Shown piece by piece: positions 7,911-22,019 of a stretch of 64,000 nt of DNA; positions within the stretch are counted from its first letter, which is position 1; every line of letters begins with the position of its first letter. The stretch comes from an uncultured Lacinutrix sp. (GTDB lineage Bacteria; Bacteroidota; Bacteroidia; Flavobacteriales; Flavobacteriaceae). The DNA lies in the NCBI GenBank assembly GCA_937129145.1, contig CAKZMU010000045.1:1-64000 (forward strand), in the 5' to 3' direction. A program made the translations under genes and the position numbers. The notes under the pieces were generated by a model. It was not told the DNA's origin. It did not search any database and saw nothing but the letters and a program-made list of their open reading frames with translations.

Positions 7911-10900
7911 TTAATCTAGTTTAAAGTTTTTAATATCCTCTTTAAAAGGTGATAAACTTAAACCTTGCATTGATGCTTTGTAAGGTTTCCATTCTTCGTT
8001 AAGGAAGGTATTAGTTTTCTCTAACGCATCATTTAAAGCATTTTTGGCGTTTTTCATTAACGTACGCTCTGTTGAAGTAATACCACTTTTTCTTGACCTA
8101 ACATAAGACGCAGCACCAAAAACACGTTGCATAACATTAACATTAGGGTCACTTGTAATACCTTGTCTTCTATCAACTTTTCCAAAATAGAGTTCTAGTA
8201 CTTTATCAATACTCTTTACAATATCTTTAGACGCCTTAATATTATCTTTATGAGCTTTTTTATCAAGTTTTGCTAGCATTTTACTATACTCAGATGCTAT
8301 ATTTTTGCTTTCCACCAATTGCTTAACAGCATCGGCAGCTATTTGCGTAATGCCTTCTATTTCTTTTGAAGCATTATATACTTCATTAATAGAATTCATA
8401 TCCACATTCAATCTAGGGTCTGACGCCACTGTAATACTAGTTTCAGATGTTTGGTCACCAAAACTCATAACAACCTTGTAAGTTCCTGGTTTTACACCAA
8501 CACCTCCTGGTTCACCACGACGTGGACGAATAACTCGAGATGGTCTATCGCCACCTTTTTCTCTCATTCCCCAAGTCCATTTATGCAAGCCACTTTCTTT
8601 TGGAGCTTTACGTTTTAATGTTCTAATCAAGCGGTCACCATCATAAATATTCATGTGTATAGAATCCCATTTTACTTTGTTTTCAGCTTTTTCAGTTGGT
8701 TGTTCTGCAACTTCAGTTTTTGCTTTCTTACTTTTTTTCTTTTTCTTAGAATCATCAGCTTTTGGCATGTCTTTTTTCTTGTCATCAATTTTTATAAAAT
8801 ATGACATAATTGCGCCACCACTTCTGTTATCACCTTGATACATAGCATCTGCACCAAATCGGCTTCCAGTAGGTTGCTGATAAGCTGCTTGATAGGCTGT
8901 TGGAGGATTAAATAAAGTAAGTTTGTTGTTTAAAACTGCTTTGCTTCTAGCAATTTCACGTAACGGACGAATATCATCAAGTACCCAAGCTGCTCTACCA
9001 AATGTACCAATAACCAAATCGTGCTCACGAGGATGAATTACCAAGTCTTTTACTGAGGTTGTTGGAAATCCTTCGGTCCATTTTGTCCATTTGTTTCCAG
9101 CATCTATTGATATATATAAACCATCATCAGTTCCTAAAAACATAAGGTTTGGTTCTTCTAAATCTTCAACAATGGCAAGTGCATAGCTTTCCACATCATT
9201 GTCATCTACAATTCTTGTCCAAGTTTTTCCATAATCTTTGGTTCTATATACATAAGCCTCGTAATTAAAACGTCTGTAGTCATTTGCTACTAAAAGGGCT
9301 TCACCTTTATTTTTATTGGATGCTTTAATTTGTGGAATCCAGCTTCCAGTAGGTAGGCCTTTTATATTTTGAGATACATCAGTCCAAGTTTGACCTCCGT
9401 TTTGTGTAAAATGTACACGACCATCATCTGTACCAACCCAAAGCATGTCTTTTTCTACAGGCGAGGGCTCAATAACAAGAATGGTTGTATGGTTTTCGGC
9501 ACCAGTTGCATCCATTGACAAACCACCACTTTCGTGCTGTTTTTGTTTCTCAGGGTCGTTGGTTGTTAAATCTGGTGAAATAGCAGTCCATGTTAAACCT
9601 TTATCAGTTGACTTGTGTACAAACTGACTTCCAAAATAAATAGTGCTATTGTTGAAAGGGTCAATATTTATAGCTGAATTCCAGTTAAATCTTAACTTCA
9701 CATCTGGGTCTGGATGCGTTGGTCTAATACTATAATTATTGCCAGTTTGCCAATCGTAACGACTAACAGACCCTTGTTGACTCATGGTAAACCCAAAGCG
9801 AGCATCATCTCTATCTGGTACGACATCAAACCCATCACCAAACGATATTTCTTGCCAATAAGAGTTACGTATGCCTTGTGCTTTCCATACATAGGCTGGA
9901 CCTCTCCAAGAGCCATTGTCTTGCATCCCTCCGTAAACATTATATGGGAACTCATTATCAACATTTATATGGTAAAATTGAGCTACAGGTAAGTTGCCAA
10001 TAAAGCGCCATGTTTTCCCGCCATCTCTTGTAATATTTAACCCACCATCGTTTCCGTCCATCATAAAGCTACCATCTATAGGGTGAACCCACCAAGCATG
10101 ATGGTCTGGATGTACACCATTATTTACACCATATGCAGGCATTAATGATGAGAAACTCTTACCACCATCTTGACTTACATTAACATAGGTGTAAATTGAA
10201 AATACGCGATTTTCGTTTTCTGGGTCTACATAAATTTCTGAATAATAAAAAGGTCTGTTTCCAATATCATTTCCATCATTTACTTTTCTCCATTTAAAAC
10301 CTCCATCGGTACTTTTATACAAAGCATTCTTTTTTGACTCTATGAGTGCATACACAATGTTTGTTTTATTTGCTGCAATAGCGACACCTATTCTTCCTAA
10401 ATTACCTTTTGGCAACCCATCTTCAGACGATAATTTTTTCCAAGTATTTCCTCCATCATGAGTGATGTGTAATCCAGAACCTTCACCACCAGAATTAAAA
10501 AACCATGGCTCACGTTTGTGTTCCCACATGGCAGCAATTAATTTGTTTGGATTTGTTGGGTCCATTATTAAATCGGCAACTCCAGTTTTATTATTTGCAA
10601 ATAGAATTTTATTCCAAGTTTTACCACCATCGGTTGTTTTAAAAACGCCACGTTCTGGATGTTCTCCCCAAGGCGACCCAATGGCACCAACATAAACTAC
10701 ATCAGGATTTGTTGGGTCAATAATAACACGATGAATGTGTCGTGTTTTTTGTAACCCCATGGCTTTCCAGCTTTTACCACCATCGAGCGATTTATAAACT
10801 CCATAACCACCATTTAAGCTATTACGAGGGTTTCCCTCACCAGTTCCAACCCAAATAACACTAGGGTTAGATTGTTGGATAGCGACAGCACCAATAGAAG

Positions 10901-18237: not shown

Positions 18238-18705
18238 CTATTGTTTAATATAATTAAATTTTACGGTTTCTACAGTTCCGTTTTCTTCAATATCTACATA
18301 GATATTCATTTCGTTATCGTTAATTTTTTCAAAAGCCATACCTTCAAACACGACTTTGTTTGGTGTAATTTCTATAAGCGGAAAATCTACCGTTTCATCT
18401 TTCGTTTCCCAACCTTTTAAATCTGGACCAAAATGTTTTAGCTGTAAAACGAGTGAATTTTCTACTTCACGAATAATTTCTATTTCATAAAAGGTCACTT
18501 TACCATCGTTTATGAGTTTAAAGGTTGCCATCATGGAACCTGCTGAAGGCTCACTCCAAATTTCTTCGGTTTTCCCTCCAAAGGCTTCACCGTGCCAAGT
18601 TCCAGAAATCCAAGCAATGTTTTCTAGTTTGGGCTCTAGTTTTGTGTCTGTTTGGGCTTTGCAGGAAAAGCTGAGCGCTATTAATAGGATTAGTATAATT
18701 CTCAT
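18238..18705 (-). CDS. DUF6265-family secreted protein
   Basis: A 155-residue protein with an N-terminal hydrophobic signal and a lipobox-like SFSC. It is followed by the DUF6265 pattern: IAWISGTWHGEAFGGKTEEIWSEP, then SMMATFKLINDGKVTFYEIE and HFGPDLKGWE. The fold is probably a small beta-barrel, but no activity is known. It appears to be the first gene of the run TMEM175-M28-TraB-like-M1-YdeI, because 140 bases of non-coding DNA lie upstream. Confidence 0.83.
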   Translation of the reverse strand: MRIILILLIALSFSCKAQTDTKLEPKLENIAWISGTWHGEAFGGKTEEIWSEPSAGSMMATFKLINDGKVTFYEIEIIREVENSLVLQLKHFGPDLKGWETKDETVDFPLIEITPNKVVFEGMAFEKINDNEMNIYVDIEENGTVETVKFNYIKQ

Positions 18706-18789
18706 AGAAGCTTTTTATGTGGTTGGTTGCATGGTTAAGCTACTAATTTACAAAAATGGAATGAAGCGTGAGGAAATTTAGAGAGTTTT

Positions 18790-18845
18790 CAATCTAGGCA
18801 ATTACACAAGTAATTATTATACACGTTGTTGTATGCCGTATTTTT
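18790..18845. repeat. Cassette-like junction sequence J3
   Basis: Includes GTAATTATTATAC (18810-18822) followed by ACGTTGTTG, closely resembling the arm GTAATTAATTTTATAC-GGTGTTGG in junction J2. It also contains a small palindrome AATTAC-ACAA-GTAATT (18800-18815). It lies immediately 3' of the minus-strand gene ending at 18846, as J2 lies 3' of the gene ending at 19980. Confidence 0.5.
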
Positions 18846-19817
18846 TTAATGCCATCTAGTTTCTTGATGACGTCCATAATCATTATAAGTTAATTCTTTT
18901 AATTTTTTTACAAGTCTTAAATTGTCAGATTTTTTATAAAGATATCTTGTCTTTTTAGAATGCTTGACTTTAATAAAATCAGATAATTCTTCGGGCTTTC
19001 CTTTTTCTTCTTCTAAGGTATAATATATTTCAAATTCTCCAAAGTTATTATATGGCTCATTAAGCATTTTAAATCGCAAGTAGATATATTCCGAATCTCC
19101 ATTTCGTTCTGGTCGCAAATAATTAAAATCTGTCGAGTCAATTTTCGCAGAGTTTATAAGCTCAAATAATTCAGATAGGACTGGTTTTATGTCTAATTTG
19201 TCTAACTTTTGCTTATCTCCTGAAACAGCGTAATATCCATAACTATCTCCAAACTCATTTTTCTTAAATCCGCTACCATACCATATTCTAAACCAATTTA
19301 TCGAATTATAGTCAATTTTATGTTTGGTTAAATGTGGTTCTGAATGTTCCGGTTCTATGATTCTTCTACCAAAAGGATAATCTCCAATATCCAATCCGTA
19401 AAGTTGATTTTCTGAAGTGATAATATTTATAAATTTTGTAGAATTTTTTTCGTTTGCAAAAGGAAAACTCAATTTAGCAAAAGTCTGTTTTTTGCCTTCT
19501 AAAATATTGATAGTATTTGAAATTTGAACAAGACTATCAGAAGGGAATTTTGATTCAGAAATTGCTATTTGTCCTTTATTAATTATATCTCTCCAAATAC
19601 TGTTTGTTGCGGTAGTAATTATTTTTTCTGGAAACATTGACTTTAAGCTATCCAATTGATTTTGTCTAATAAACTCAATCGCCTTTTTAGCTGTTAATAA
19701 CTCTGAATCATTTTTGAATTCCGTGTTTCTTAATTCATTAATTGCTTTAGAATAAGGATTCCCACAACTCAATATTGTGATTGAAAAAAGTAAAAAAGCC
19801 AAATGTTTATAATTCAT
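18846..19817 (-). CDS. Lipoprotein of unknown function
   Basis: The start is set at the ATG giving MNYKHLAFLLFSITILSCG, a classic lipoprotein signal with SCG lipobox; a longer in-frame start eight codons upstream would spoil the signal. The mature part is about 300 residues, rich in charged residues and aromatic strands (ISESKFPSDSL, YGLDIGDYPFGRRI, WYGSGFKKNEFGDSYGYYAV). I do not recognise the family. It is a single-gene unit framed by repeated junction sequences on both sides (18790-18845 and 19830-19978), suggesting it arrived as a cassette. Confidence 0.75.
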   Translation of the reverse strand: MNYKHLAFLLFSITILSCGNPYSKAINELRNTEFKNDSELLTAKKAIEFIRQNQLDSLKSMFPEKIITTATNSIWRDIINKGQIAISESKFPSDSLVQISNTINILEGKKQTFAKLSFPFANEKNSTKFINIITSENQLYGLDIGDYPFGRRIIEPEHSEPHLTKHKIDYNSINWFRIWYGSGFKKNEFGDSYGYYAVSGDKQKLDKLDIKPVLSELFELINSAKIDSTDFNYLRPERNGDSEYIYLRFKMLNEPYNNFGEFEIYYTLEEEKGKPEELSDFIKVKHSKKTRYLYKKSDNLRLVKKLKELTYNDYGRHQETRWH

Positions 19818-19829
19818 TTTCTTGATTAG

Positions 19830-19978
19830 GTTATATGGCATATAACGGATTTGTATAAGATTAGTTACGTTGGTTAAGTACTAAATTTAGCAAATACAAA
19901 TCAAATAGAAAACCTGCGAGAATTTTCGTAAGTAAGCTTGTGCTAGTAATTAATTTTATACGGTGTTGGCATTAGTAT
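19830..19978. repeat. Cassette-like junction sequence J2 with imperfect terminal arms
   Basis: Inverted arms GTATAAGATTAGTTAC (19853-19868) and GTAATTAATTTTATAC (19946-19961) match at 14 of 16 positions when one is reversed. They enclose about 77 bases including CCTGCGAGAATTTTCGTAAG. GGCATATAACGG on one outer side and CGGTGTTGGCA on the other are near-complementary. It fills the whole gap between two single-gene units. Confidence 0.6.
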
Positions 19979-19979
19979 T

Positions 19980-20402
19980 TTACAATTCCTTTTTAATAAT
20001 TACAATTCTTTCATTTTTCAAATCACCAGCTCTTGTTGGTGAAAGATAAATTCTATTGGTCTCGCCCAAGCCCTTGCAGAATAATCTTTCAGATTCAATT
20101 CCTCTTTTTATTAATTCTAATTTTATTAATTCTGACCTTTTCTGTGTTTTCTTAAGATTAAATTCAGATTTCCCTCTCATTGAGGAGTGAGATTCAATAT
20201 AATATTCAAATTCATTAAGCTTCAAAAAATCTGAGATTGAATCTAAAACAATAAAAGAATTCTGTTCAAGTTTAGTAGATTCAGATTTCGTAAATTTTAT
20301 TTTTCCTGTTAGTTTTTTTAATTCTTCAGCATTGTTCTGTGCACAAGATTCTCCGAAAATAAGTGTTAATAATATTAATAAAATATTTCTTGCGTTTTTC
20401 AT
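19980..20402 (-). CDS. Small OmpA-domain-like lipoprotein
   Basis: A 140-residue protein with a signal ending LIFGESCAQ (lipobox-like). The remainder resembles the C-terminal OmpA/MotB peptidoglycan-binding fold: FEYYIESHSSMRGKSEFNLKKTQKRSELIKLELIKRG, then GLGETNRIY and NERIVIIKK at the end. In canonical members an Asp and an Arg bind diaminopimelate. Here the NERIVI arginine is present, while the usual TD motif is replaced by IESHS, so peptidoglycan binding is uncertain. It is framed by junctions J1 and J2. Confidence 0.72.
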   Translation of the reverse strand: MKNARNILLILLTLIFGESCAQNNAEELKKLTGKIKFTKSESTKLEQNSFIVLDSISDFLKLNEFEYYIESHSSMRGKSEFNLKKTQKRSELIKLELIKRGIESERLFCKGLGETNRIYLSPTRAGDLKNERIVIIKKEL

Positions 20403-20440
20403 TCTTATATTAATGCCTAACTACTGTATAAAAGTAACTC
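20403..20440. repeat. Cassette-like junction J1 (5' edge)
   Basis: Read on the minus strand, TTATACAGTAGTTAGGCATT precedes the OmpA-like gene. It parallels the TTATACAAATCCGTTATATG that precedes the 19817 gene inside J2. It is shorter than J2 and overlaps the 3' end of the gene stopping at 20421, so only the boundary is repeated. Confidence 0.35.
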
Positions 20441-22019
20441 TCTTAATCAAATCGTTCTCAACCTCATAAATTGCTACTGCATAAAAAACTCGCCCGTTAA
20501 CGGTCACCTTTTCTTTATCAATAACTTTGTTGCCTAAGACAATCCTGTTCACGATTTCGGCATTTAAATCTGGTACGCTTTCAAAAAACGAAGCATATTG
20601 TCGTTTAAGTGCAGCACGTCCTTGAGTTGTTGCAGCGTTAGGAAATGTATATAATTTAATATCGACACTATAGGTGTTAACAAAACCATCAATGTCTCTA
20701 TTGTTATAAACCTCGAGTTGTTTGTTTACAATGGCTTCAGGGTTAGATGTGGTTTTAGAATTGCTTAAAAAGGTCATTGAGTTAATATCTTGTGCATCAG
20801 TTTCATAAATTGTTACTTGCCTGTTTGTGGTATTGTTTAGGGTTACTAACTCTTCATCAATAACCATATTTTTTAGTGTGATTCGGTTTATAACTTTGAC
20901 GTTCGATTTTTTATTCTCCCTAAAAAACTGCGCGTAGTTCTCCTTTAAGGTATTACGACCAGAATACATTTTATCATTTGGGAATCTGTTCACGACAACA
21001 TTTTCATCAAACGCATTTGCGAATTCATTAAGCTGTCTGTTATTAAAGGGCTCGATATGTTTTTGCACAACTTCGGCAGCTTTTTCCTCACTTATAGTTG
21101 AAGTGTTGGTGTTAGTGTTTGTATTGCCATCGTTGGTATCAACAGTATTTGTTTTATTAGCATTAATATCTCCAGCAATGAGGAGCATAGTCGCTTCTGG
21201 ATTGGTCGCTAAACGCGTTATTTTTGAAATCCCTTTGGAGTTTAAATCAGCTACTTTTTTCCAATTATTATCCTTTCGTAAGGTTAATTTATATAGCACG
21301 CTTTCTTTCCCAGAAAGAATGGTTCTACTATTTAACCAGCAAATATCTTCAACATCACTCATAGTGTTAGCAATGAGTCTCGTAGCTCCAGAGTTTGGGT
21401 TTATCGATTTAATTTGCCAAACATCATTCTCTTTAGAAATATAACTTACAAGATTGGAGTTTGGAATTTTATGAAACGAGCGACCGACGTTGGTAGCGTA
21501 TTTTCTGCTCCAACCTTCAGATAAGTTGACAGCGTATAAGTTTAAATTGCTTTCTTCGATGACTGCACCTACAATAGTATGTTCGTCATGCCAAGTATAA
21601 TAGGCAAAGACAAGGTCTTGAACAAGCTCAGTCGATTCGCCATTTCGTAAATCATAGGTGTATAAACGTTGTTTTCCATCTTTGTCTAAACGAACGGCTG
21701 AAACCGCATTTTTACCTGGAATTTTTAAAGGCGAATATTCGCCGCCTTCAGTATGGTTAATAAAAATTTTTGAGTCGTAATTGATATTATATTTTACAAT
21801 ATCGGTTTGACCGTTTCTAGTTCCTGCGTACAAAACCGTGTTACTATCAAGAAATGATGGTTGGTTATCATACCCTTCGTTGGATGAAATATTTCTGTTA
21901 TTTAATAGCTCTACAGAGTTGTATGTGGCTTTTAAATCGAACAGAAAAACGTCGGTATTTGGTTGAGAATAGCTTAATAAAATAGTAAAGAATAAGAGAG
22001 TAGCAAACAATTTACGCAT
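20421..22019 (-). CDS. Secreted beta-propeller protein with two C-terminal NTF2/SnoaL-like domains
   Basis: After the signal peptide, residues about 25-285 form a TolB/WD40-like propeller (PSFLDSNTVLYAGTRNGQTDIVKYN, RLYTYDLRNGES, ILSGKESVLYKL). A Thr/Asn-rich linker (TNTVDTNDGNTNTNTNTST) around residues 288-308 leads to two tandem NTF2/SnoaL-like domains of about 105 residues. The second repeats the first: EPFNNRQLNEFANAFDENV against EVYNNRDIDGFVNTYSVDI, and IVNRIVLGNKVIDKEKVTV against VINRITLKNMVIDEELVTL. It is divergent from the AraC-type regulator. Function unknown. Confidence 0.82.
   Translation of the reverse strand: MRKLFATLLFFTILLSYSQPNTDVFLFDLKATYNSVELLNNRNISSNEGYDNQPSFLDSNTVLYAGTRNGQTDIVKYNINYDSKIFINHTEGGEYSPLKIPGKNAVSAVRLDKDGKQRLYTYDLRNGESTELVQDLVFAYYTWHDEHTIVGAVIEESNLNLYAVNLSEGWSRKYATNVGRSFHKIPNSNLVSYISKENDVWQIKSINPNSGATRLIANTMSDVEDICWLNSRTILSGKESVLYKLTLRKDNNWKKVADLNSKGISKITRLATNPEATMLLIAGDINANKTNTVDTNDGNTNTNTNTSTISEEKAAEVVQKHIEPFNNRQLNEFANAFDENVVVNRFPNDKMYSGRNTLKENYAQFFRENKKSNVKVINRITLKNMVIDEELVTLNNTTNRQVTIYETDAQDINSMTFLSNSKTTSNPEAIVNKQLEVYNNRDIDGFVNTYSVDIKLYTFPNAATTQGRAALKRQYASFFESVPDLNAEIVNRIVLGNKVIDKEKVTVNGRVFYAVAIYEVENDLIKRVTFIQ

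Follow-up and report, generated by a model that had tools for sequence, protein, structure and literature searches.

Gene order at the locus

The window (the whole stretch of DNA that was analysed, 64,000 nucleotides) carries, in minus-strand order, a SnoaL-domain gene, an OmpA-family lipoprotein gene, the spacer J2, an unknown lipoprotein gene, the junction J3 and a DUF6265 gene. The original prediction had singled out the two lipoprotein genes as units of one gene plus a folded 3' site, set head to tail in the manner of integron cassettes. This arrangement is supported by our analysis, in which such sites recur between mostly single accessory genes. The features are as follows.

20421..22019, minus strand: resident gene with SnoaL-like domains (Pfam SnoaL_2), followed in congeners by DUF6265 without cassettes
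19846..20420, minus strand: putative cassette 1 (TTAGGCATTAATAT ... G), a unit bounded by G^TT
19980..20402, minus strand: OmpA-family lipoprotein gene of cassette 1 (Pfam OmpA, 9.3e-10)
19840..19971, minus strand: attC-like site J2, between cassettes 1 and 2 (covariance model R1, 130.9 bits, E 1.6e-24; J2 is one of the 12 R1 seeds)
~18711..19845, minus strand: putative cassette 2 (TTATATGCC ...), from its start/end match, by eye
18846..19841, minus strand: unknown lipoprotein gene (ORFan) of cassette 2, an open reading frame whose real start is likely 19817 by eye
18703..18837, minus strand: attC-like site J3, decayed, at the end of cassette 2 (R1 38.2 bits, E 2.2e-4; not an R1 seed)
18238..18705, minus strand: resident DUF6265 gene, right flank of the insertion (Pfam DUF6265, 1.3e-40)

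The junction sequences quoted in the original prediction were all found in their places, and J2 does occupy all of the space between the two genes. Comparing its arm GTATAAAATTAATTAC with the reverse complement of GTAACTAATCTTATAC confirms the claimed 14 matches in 16 positions, and the two arms constitute the L stem; the remaining parts are R'' (GCCAAC, 19965-19970) and R' (G^TT, 19844-19846). The stem is 16 bp long with two A.C positions, and it is these two, nearly invariant across the site family, that account for the two arm mismatches. Cassette 2 likewise ends in a similar sequence, as had been proposed for J3, but the supposed short motif is in fact a site of almost full length that has decayed (18703-18836, E 2.2e-4). 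Because its R' is decayed, the right boundary of cassette 2 is uncertain by one or two bases. In cassette 1, the start GTTAGGCATTAATAT matches by eye the reverse complement of the unit's own end, GTTGGCATTAGTAT, bar one gap and an A/G difference that is usual in such units; the same match can also be written, again by eye, as GTTAGGCATTAATAT with GTT-GGCATTAGTAT. The start of cassette 2, GTTATATGCCATAT, agrees with the reverse complement of its end, GTTGTATGCCGTAT, at 12 of 14 positions with the same A/G difference (by eye). The cassette 2 lipoprotein has no Pfam match over cut-off, and this protein was present in only one of 60 genomes, namely its own.

The insertion locus in relatives

Four congeners (G001-G004) have a comparable gene end, and in all of them the DUF6265 gene comes directly after the SnoaL gene, with neither cassette gene present; the gap is 6 bases in G002, G003 and G004 and 83 in G001. 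Compared with these congeners, the window locus contains an extra 1.7 kb beginning at TAG^TTAGGC, in which the G is the last base of the SnoaL-domain gene's stop codon TAG. DUF6265 adjoins a SnoaL-family match in the stretches from eight of nine relatives, following a shorter SnoaL-family match in G005, G010, G013 and G018, and is absent from the stretch examined in G006; the search for the cassette 1 protein covered the relatives' stretches around the locus. The cassettes are therefore not a conserved part of this neighbourhood, since none of the examined relatives has them at the orthologous position.

The same comparison modifies one part of the original prediction, namely that both units begin in junction sequence. 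This is true of TTAGGC..., but the TTATACAGTAG part of the first junction, J1, is resident sequence from the end of the SnoaL gene, which congeners possess without the cassettes. In its place the cassette-free congeners have TTTTATACAATAG (G004), TTTTATTCAATAA (G002, G003) and TTTTATCCAATAA (G001). Given the similarity of the target, TTTTATACAGTAG^TT, to the L'-R' half of a site, the simplest explanation is that the same recombinase inserted the pair at a secondary site. This site would be double-stranded and located at the end of the resident gene, at a distance from the array.

A widespread family of sites

J2 belongs to a family of sites of ~133 nt and is neither a chance likeness nor unique to this place, since copies exist in its own genome as well as in others. 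As a DNA query, it detected 13 further places at E<1e-5 in its own genome, while R1, built from 12 aligned sites including J2, yielded 46 matches at E<=2.2e-4, of which 12 are the seeds themselves. Eleven R1 matches are located between 66 and 83 kb on contig C78, all on one strand. A further strong site (88737-88870, E 1.2e-17) is found on the window's own contig, ~25 kb beyond the window.

When 60 genomes including the source genome were scanned, R1 matches at E<=0.01 occurred in at least 42, comprising at least 35 of 37 sampled family members and at least 7 of 23 genomes from the rest of the order, and a phylum sample gave matches at E<=1e-6 in at least 39 of 296; with 55 candidates scored per genome in the first scan and 11 in the second, these counts are all lower bounds. 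Another 12 genomes, six of them Bacteroidota, were reached via named recombinase loci. At E<=0.001, Winogradskyella ursingii has 37 sites, Seonamhaeicola aphaedonensis and Zunongwangia mangrovi 27 each, Mesonia aestuariivivens 18 and Algoriphagus ornithinivorans one, and none is found at this threshold in Flavobacterium aciduliphilum, in which the recombinase is present. The six non-Bacteroidota genomes, which include Xanthomonas pisi, Geobacter and an Acidobacterium, likewise yielded no R1 match at E<=0.001.

The largest number was observed in G019, a single-contig genome, where the stretches around two arrays contain 112 R1 matches at E<0.5. Of these, 107 share one strand, in agreement with the single orientation that the original prediction had proposed to look for, and the five on the opposite strand have E-values of 0.007-0.49. 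A site from the C78 array, used as a DNA query, matched three plasmid records, two from Tenacibaculum finnmarkense (CP116298.1, CP116296.1) and one from Flammeovirga. Draft contigs often break within or beside sites, or just past the recombinase described below (C44, C66 and C107 of the source genome, C5 of G004, C3 of G033), and draft genomes will therefore under-report arrays.

Structure and strand preference of the sites

The sites exhibit the layout of attC, i.e. an imperfect inverted repeat with R''-L'' and L'-R' arms and a crossover point at G^TT. Among 131 unique sites, in an alignment that was fitted to the R1 model's structure, 13 L-stem pairs are 97% Watson-Crick (1655/1699), with two to four pair types at many positions. 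The 16-pair L stem contains two nearly fixed exceptions: columns 22/322 hold A in 108 and C in 108 of 111 sites, and columns 27/314 hold A in 111 and C in 110 of the 111. Both are A.C mismatches on the top strand and T.G wobbles on the bottom strand. No well-filled bulge column, as would accommodate extrahelical bases, was found in the L stem of the 111 sites, the nearest being one column filled in nine of them. The R box consensus of classical attC is GTTRRRY / RYYYAAC. In the present sites it is not kept beyond GTT[A/G], the next base being a purine in 41 of 111, and the earlier remark that the cores are not classical attC was thus correct.

Folding was used to compare the two strands in 69 distinct sites of the circle form, obtained from 99 cassettes after long sites, sites without CGTT and repeats were left out. 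The bottom strand was stabler than the top in 67 of the 69 circle sites and in 65 of the 69 in-array sites. Relative to shuffled sequences, z values below -2 were obtained for the top strand in 57 and the bottom strand in 58 of the 60 circle sites for which z was computed. For J2 alone, neither strand is stabler than its shuffled versions (z 0.20 and -0.18; -8.9 bottom, -7.9 top), and the only three other sites folded in the same way, all hand-picked, gave bottom-strand z values of -3.84, -4.22 and -4.56. Wobble bias on the top strand was mixed, with A.C outnumbering G.T in the L stem (21 vs 6) and G.T outnumbering A.C in the inner hairpin (66 vs 7). For this reason, the strand preference rests upon the two fixed positions and the folding comparison. 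The recombination substrate is presumably single-stranded, the sites most likely acting as hairpins of the bottom (non-coding) strand.

A tyrosine recombinase linked to polarised arrays

No integrase had been noticed by the original prediction, and none adjoins the window pair, but the same genome encodes a tyrosine recombinase of 277 residues on another contig (C78:84421-85251; L031:14422-15255), directly beside the 11-site array. It scores 217.1 bits with the XerA model NF040815 (cut-off 220) and 213.6 bits with the integron integrase model TIGR02249 (cut-off 265), and that of L079 reaches 234.9 bits with NF040815. This model also takes in the true XerD L091 (229.6) and hence does not separate XerA from XerD. 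The predicted fold (mean pLDDT 85.2, pTM 0.61) has its best Foldseek E-values with XerA (5hxy) and an integron integrase (2a3v), at modest TM-scores of 0.56 to XerA and 0.62 to IntI4, and of 0.69 to the Tn1549 integrase. The IntI-specific insert I2, ~42 residues in length, is missing, such that IntI4 residues 183-243 align opposite residues 183-200. The spacing between the KxxR and HxLRH motifs reflects this: 64-65 in the 13 recombinases of alignment A4 and 64-67 in the 11 measured of 12 named array-linked ones, as compared with 73 in nine XerD-type proteins and 106-107 in five IntI over the TIGR02249 cut-off. TIGR02249 alignments are mostly split in two, with a gap at about 180-238. The five true IntI score 380-487 with TIGR02249 (cut-off 265). 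They group together in a starred clade, separate from the array-linked rows, in a quick tree of 65 rows that has long branches and a backbone support of 79-93. A further protein, L231, had been considered as an IntI due to its motif spacing of 108, and with 161 bits against the same cut-off it was left out of the IntI count.

In each of 12 family genomes searched (of 37), at least one homologue of the recombinase was detected at E<1e-45; most of the 12 additionally contain Xer-type genes with weaker scores (about 1e-29 and 1e-22). L091 passes the XerD cut-off, whereas the four array-linked recombinases scanned do not. It would appear that the array-linked recombinase is not the chromosomal XerC/XerD of its own genome, the XerC/XerD labels other than that of L091 being our own reading. 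The source genome also encodes two more IntI-like paralogues of ~265-272 residues (C82:1169-1912 and C18:131-910), and a weak site is located near the one on C82.

Linkage was assessed over up to 10 kb on each side of 15 IntI-like genes (13 strong, plus the two weaker paralogues of the source genome) and 20 Xer-type genes. Sites at E<=0.05 are present in 13 of the 15 IntI-like loci vs 1 of the 20 Xer-type loci, the two IntI-like exceptions being L115, which ends 225 bp past the recombinase, and the C18 paralogue (L119). All cassettes point away from the recombinase but for a single cut-off match (E 0.017) that lies at the distal edge of L116. Of the strong loci, 12 have sites: four of these, with recombinases of 277-355 residues, carry the array 5' of the recombinase, and the other eight, with recombinases of 370-402 residues, carry it 3'. 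A further 80 named loci, reached via alignment A4, include 12 with sites at E<=0.1, all reading away from the recombinase and 11 of them on its 3' side, one of the 12 (L168) being very likely the same record as L108, with the same recombinase. The other 68 had no R1 match, many of them being short, distant or not Bacteroidota. A test that used no site model and searched only for chained cassettes with matching ends detected its signature in 18 of 95 IntI-like loci, in none of the 20 Xer-type loci and nowhere in reversed sequence. Seventeen of these 18 are also R1-positive, the remaining one being L165 (Cyclobacterium), and the chain is absent from eight R1-positive loci, which include the C78 locus itself (L120).

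To locate candidate attI sites, the end of the first site was matched to the region before it, allowing for one inserted base. A candidate agreeing at 12-13 of 14 bases was located 27-684 bp from the recombinase in nine of 12 loci (L106-L111, L113, L117, L120). In L111, at 684 bp, the predicted start of the first cassette lies behind what looks like another site. L112 has a weak candidate at 11/14, and L114 and L116 gave no clear place by this method, the model-free chain in L114 starting at 9510. In L108, L110 and L112, a palindrome such as AAACACACTAGTGTGTTT immediately precedes, followed by a few bases and G^TT, much as might be expected of a double-stranded recombinase site. These candidates could well represent the points of cassette entry, and an insertion point next to the recombinase would correspond to a characteristic feature of integrons. 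Presumably, it is the linked recombinase that acts upon the cassettes: encoded elsewhere in the genome beside an attI-like site and an array, it would cut and join at G^TT in R'.

The most serious competing explanation is that these are classical cassettes moved by a true IntI, with I2, from elsewhere, and that the linked recombinase is a bystander. It derives some support from a Polaribacter phage, P12002L, for which excerpts of PMC9892861 describe two attC sites, at least one of which recombined with attI1 and is recombinable by IntI1; as regards membership of those phage sites in the present family, the C78-array query had no match in the phage collection. We regard this explanation as improbable, because TIGR02249 exceeded its cut-off in none of the 60 genomes, the linked recombinase adjoins an array and a candidate attI with fixed polarity across genera, and the sites are devoid of the extrahelical bases of classical attC.

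Cassette units, their boundaries and their content

The units themselves are most clearly delimited in G019, where GTT plus 11 bases was compared with the reverse complement of the unit's own end for the 102 neighbouring site pairs (of 107) that lie <4 kb apart. The cassette ends agree at a mean of 9.13 of 11 positions, as opposed to 4.45 for pairing within a site. Shuffled pairing of the ends gave 4.17 (sd 0.17), the highest of 2000 shuffles being 4.79. The match spans ~14 bases with one regular difference, an A at the start and a G in the complement of the end. As the ends match across the gene, gene and 3' site are kept together as one unit, which opens at G^TT and closes with the following G.

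Duplicated cassettes in different neighbourhoods of G019 provide a second view of the boundaries. There are 32 same-start pairs of like length, 22 of which are >=98.6% identical inside (ungapped; 557 to 1677 bp); the other 10, with low ungapped identity, differ by 1-2 bases in length and were retained in the boundary counts. Beyond the closing G, the shared sequence on the right amounts to exactly two bases (TT) in 20 of the 32 pairs and to two to six in 31; ahead of the opening G, on the left, the pairs share a median of one base. One pair has 60 common bases on the left and shares the same upstream neighbour. Identity thus stops at the predicted crossover, a pattern produced by cutting and joining at G^TT.

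These boundaries also bear upon the remaining alternatives. Ordinary intergenic repeats (REP- or MITE-like sequences, terminators or RNA elements) that do not move genes would likewise be structured and lie between genes, and several draft contigs do end in or near sites; the lack of any Rfam match at the gathering score in the window (the best near the site being chance matches with E 3.5 and 4) is neutral in this respect. However, the ends match across the gene and not across the site, whole units of gene plus site recur with sharp boundaries, and the arrays are polarised from one type of recombinase, which leaves this explanation only a very slight chance. Least credible of all is transposition, with every gene forming a small transposon that has terminal inverted repeats and is mobilised by a transposase: the inverted ends of ~14 bp that each unit does possess are unit-specific rather than family-specific, the conserved part is the spacer site, and the units follow one another head to tail, all in the same orientation and next to a tyrosine recombinase, with identity breaking at G^TT.

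With the site included, the median cassette length in G019 is 878 bp (104 cassettes). ORFs of 50 codons or more are present in 86 of them; the longest one lies on the array strand in 82, and a second ORF of at least 80 codons occurs in 20. Twelve of the 104 have no ORF of 50 codons, and six cross the ends of the stretches. The arrays on contig C1 of this genome include 12 or 13 cassettes of ~558 bp that start GTTATGTACAAGTTCCC (e.g. 2790413-2790970, L070); given the 12 lacking such an ORF, some of these may be non-coding. Among 79 distinct cassette proteins, 80 Pfam families were identified at E<=0.001, 14 of which recur in two or three proteins, the others occurring in a single protein each, and the PADLOC models matched include, among the first 25 listed, HerA, HamB, PtuA and type II methyltransferases. 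Accordingly, the arrays look like stores of accessory genes, some of them defence-like. A 426-residue tyrosine-recombinase-like protein is encoded inside a G019 array in cassette-like fashion (L069:5495-6772). The interior of the C78 array contains a reverse-transcriptase gene (Pfam RVT_1; L031:9779-11353) on the strand opposite to the cassettes and, by eye, an IS3-type transposase pair (L031:11489-12741).

Interpretation and relation to known systems

Our reading is that the two units in the window are gene cassettes of an integron lineage of Bacteroidota, moved by an IntI/XerA-related tyrosine recombinase at G^TT, and we consider this very probable. With high confidence, the system works like an integron. 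What speaks for it is read from sequence: the unit boundaries, the matching ends, cassette copies in new neighbourhoods, a recombinase beside an array of fixed polarity, and empty sites in relatives. Cassette recombination itself is deduced from these patterns, and the system may be active now.

A more far-reaching proposal, to which we would give an even chance, is that these systems embody a second solution to cassette recombination, in which an I2-less integrase is combined with hairpin sites that lack extrahelical bases and carry two fixed bottom-strand T.G wobbles (A.C mismatches on the top strand) as the mark of the strand. They could represent either an ancestral, pre-I2 state of the integron or an independent origin, spread through the Bacteroidota. 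In classical attC, bulged extrahelical bases help mark the bottom strand (excerpts of PMC2727003), and it is the I2 helix of IntI that docks them, a helix that PMC7790495 calls necessary for cassette capture and absent from other proteins. Apparently, a recombinase without this supposedly essential insert runs a large family of Bacteroidota integrons. A cassette system without I2 also makes the origin of single-strand recombination directly testable.

The breadth of the family, with at least 35 of the 37 sampled family members possessing one site type and up to 107 sites per genome, is to be set against the few integrons known from Bacteroidetes. The IntegronFinder 2.0 paper (PMC9024848) mentions only In0 elements in Bacteroidetes before and one complete integron since then (Salinibacter ruber), and Bacteroidota are named among the integron-bearing phyla, with no detail in the excerpts concerned (PMC8618304, PMC9668308). 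Among the open-literature matches listed, judged by title and start of abstract and with preprints and most subscription journals outside the scope, no report of Flavobacteriaceae integrons was found, which is weak evidence that none exists. Probably, the sites and arrays have escaped notice since the usual models would capture neither the enzyme nor the sites.

Several known systems are comparable. The recombinase resembles those of the XerA, XerC/XerD and XerH systems in scoring highest with NF040815 XerA and in having no I2, but it is linked to cassette arrays and is distinct from XerD and the other Xer-type genes in the same genomes. Like a CALIN, an attC cluster lacking an integron integrase, the window pair has no adjoining integrase; unlike a CALIN, its genome contains a linked recombinase with an array elsewhere, and its sites are of another type. 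The closest likeness is to the sedentary chromosomal integrons, of which the Vibrio superintegron is the type. With these are shared a recombinase gene, an attI candidate, a long one-way array of genes with attC sites, crossover at G^TT, mostly single genes and insertion at secondary sites. The differences are that the integrase lacks the I2 insert, that the sites have no bulged bases but a pair of nearly invariant T.G wobbles instead, that the R boxes are not GTTRRRY, and that the array is 3' of the integrase in eight of the 12 strong loci. As layout, site and crossover agree while I2, the R box and the extrahelical bases do not, the system is best described as an integron variant rather than a member of the IntI-defined family.
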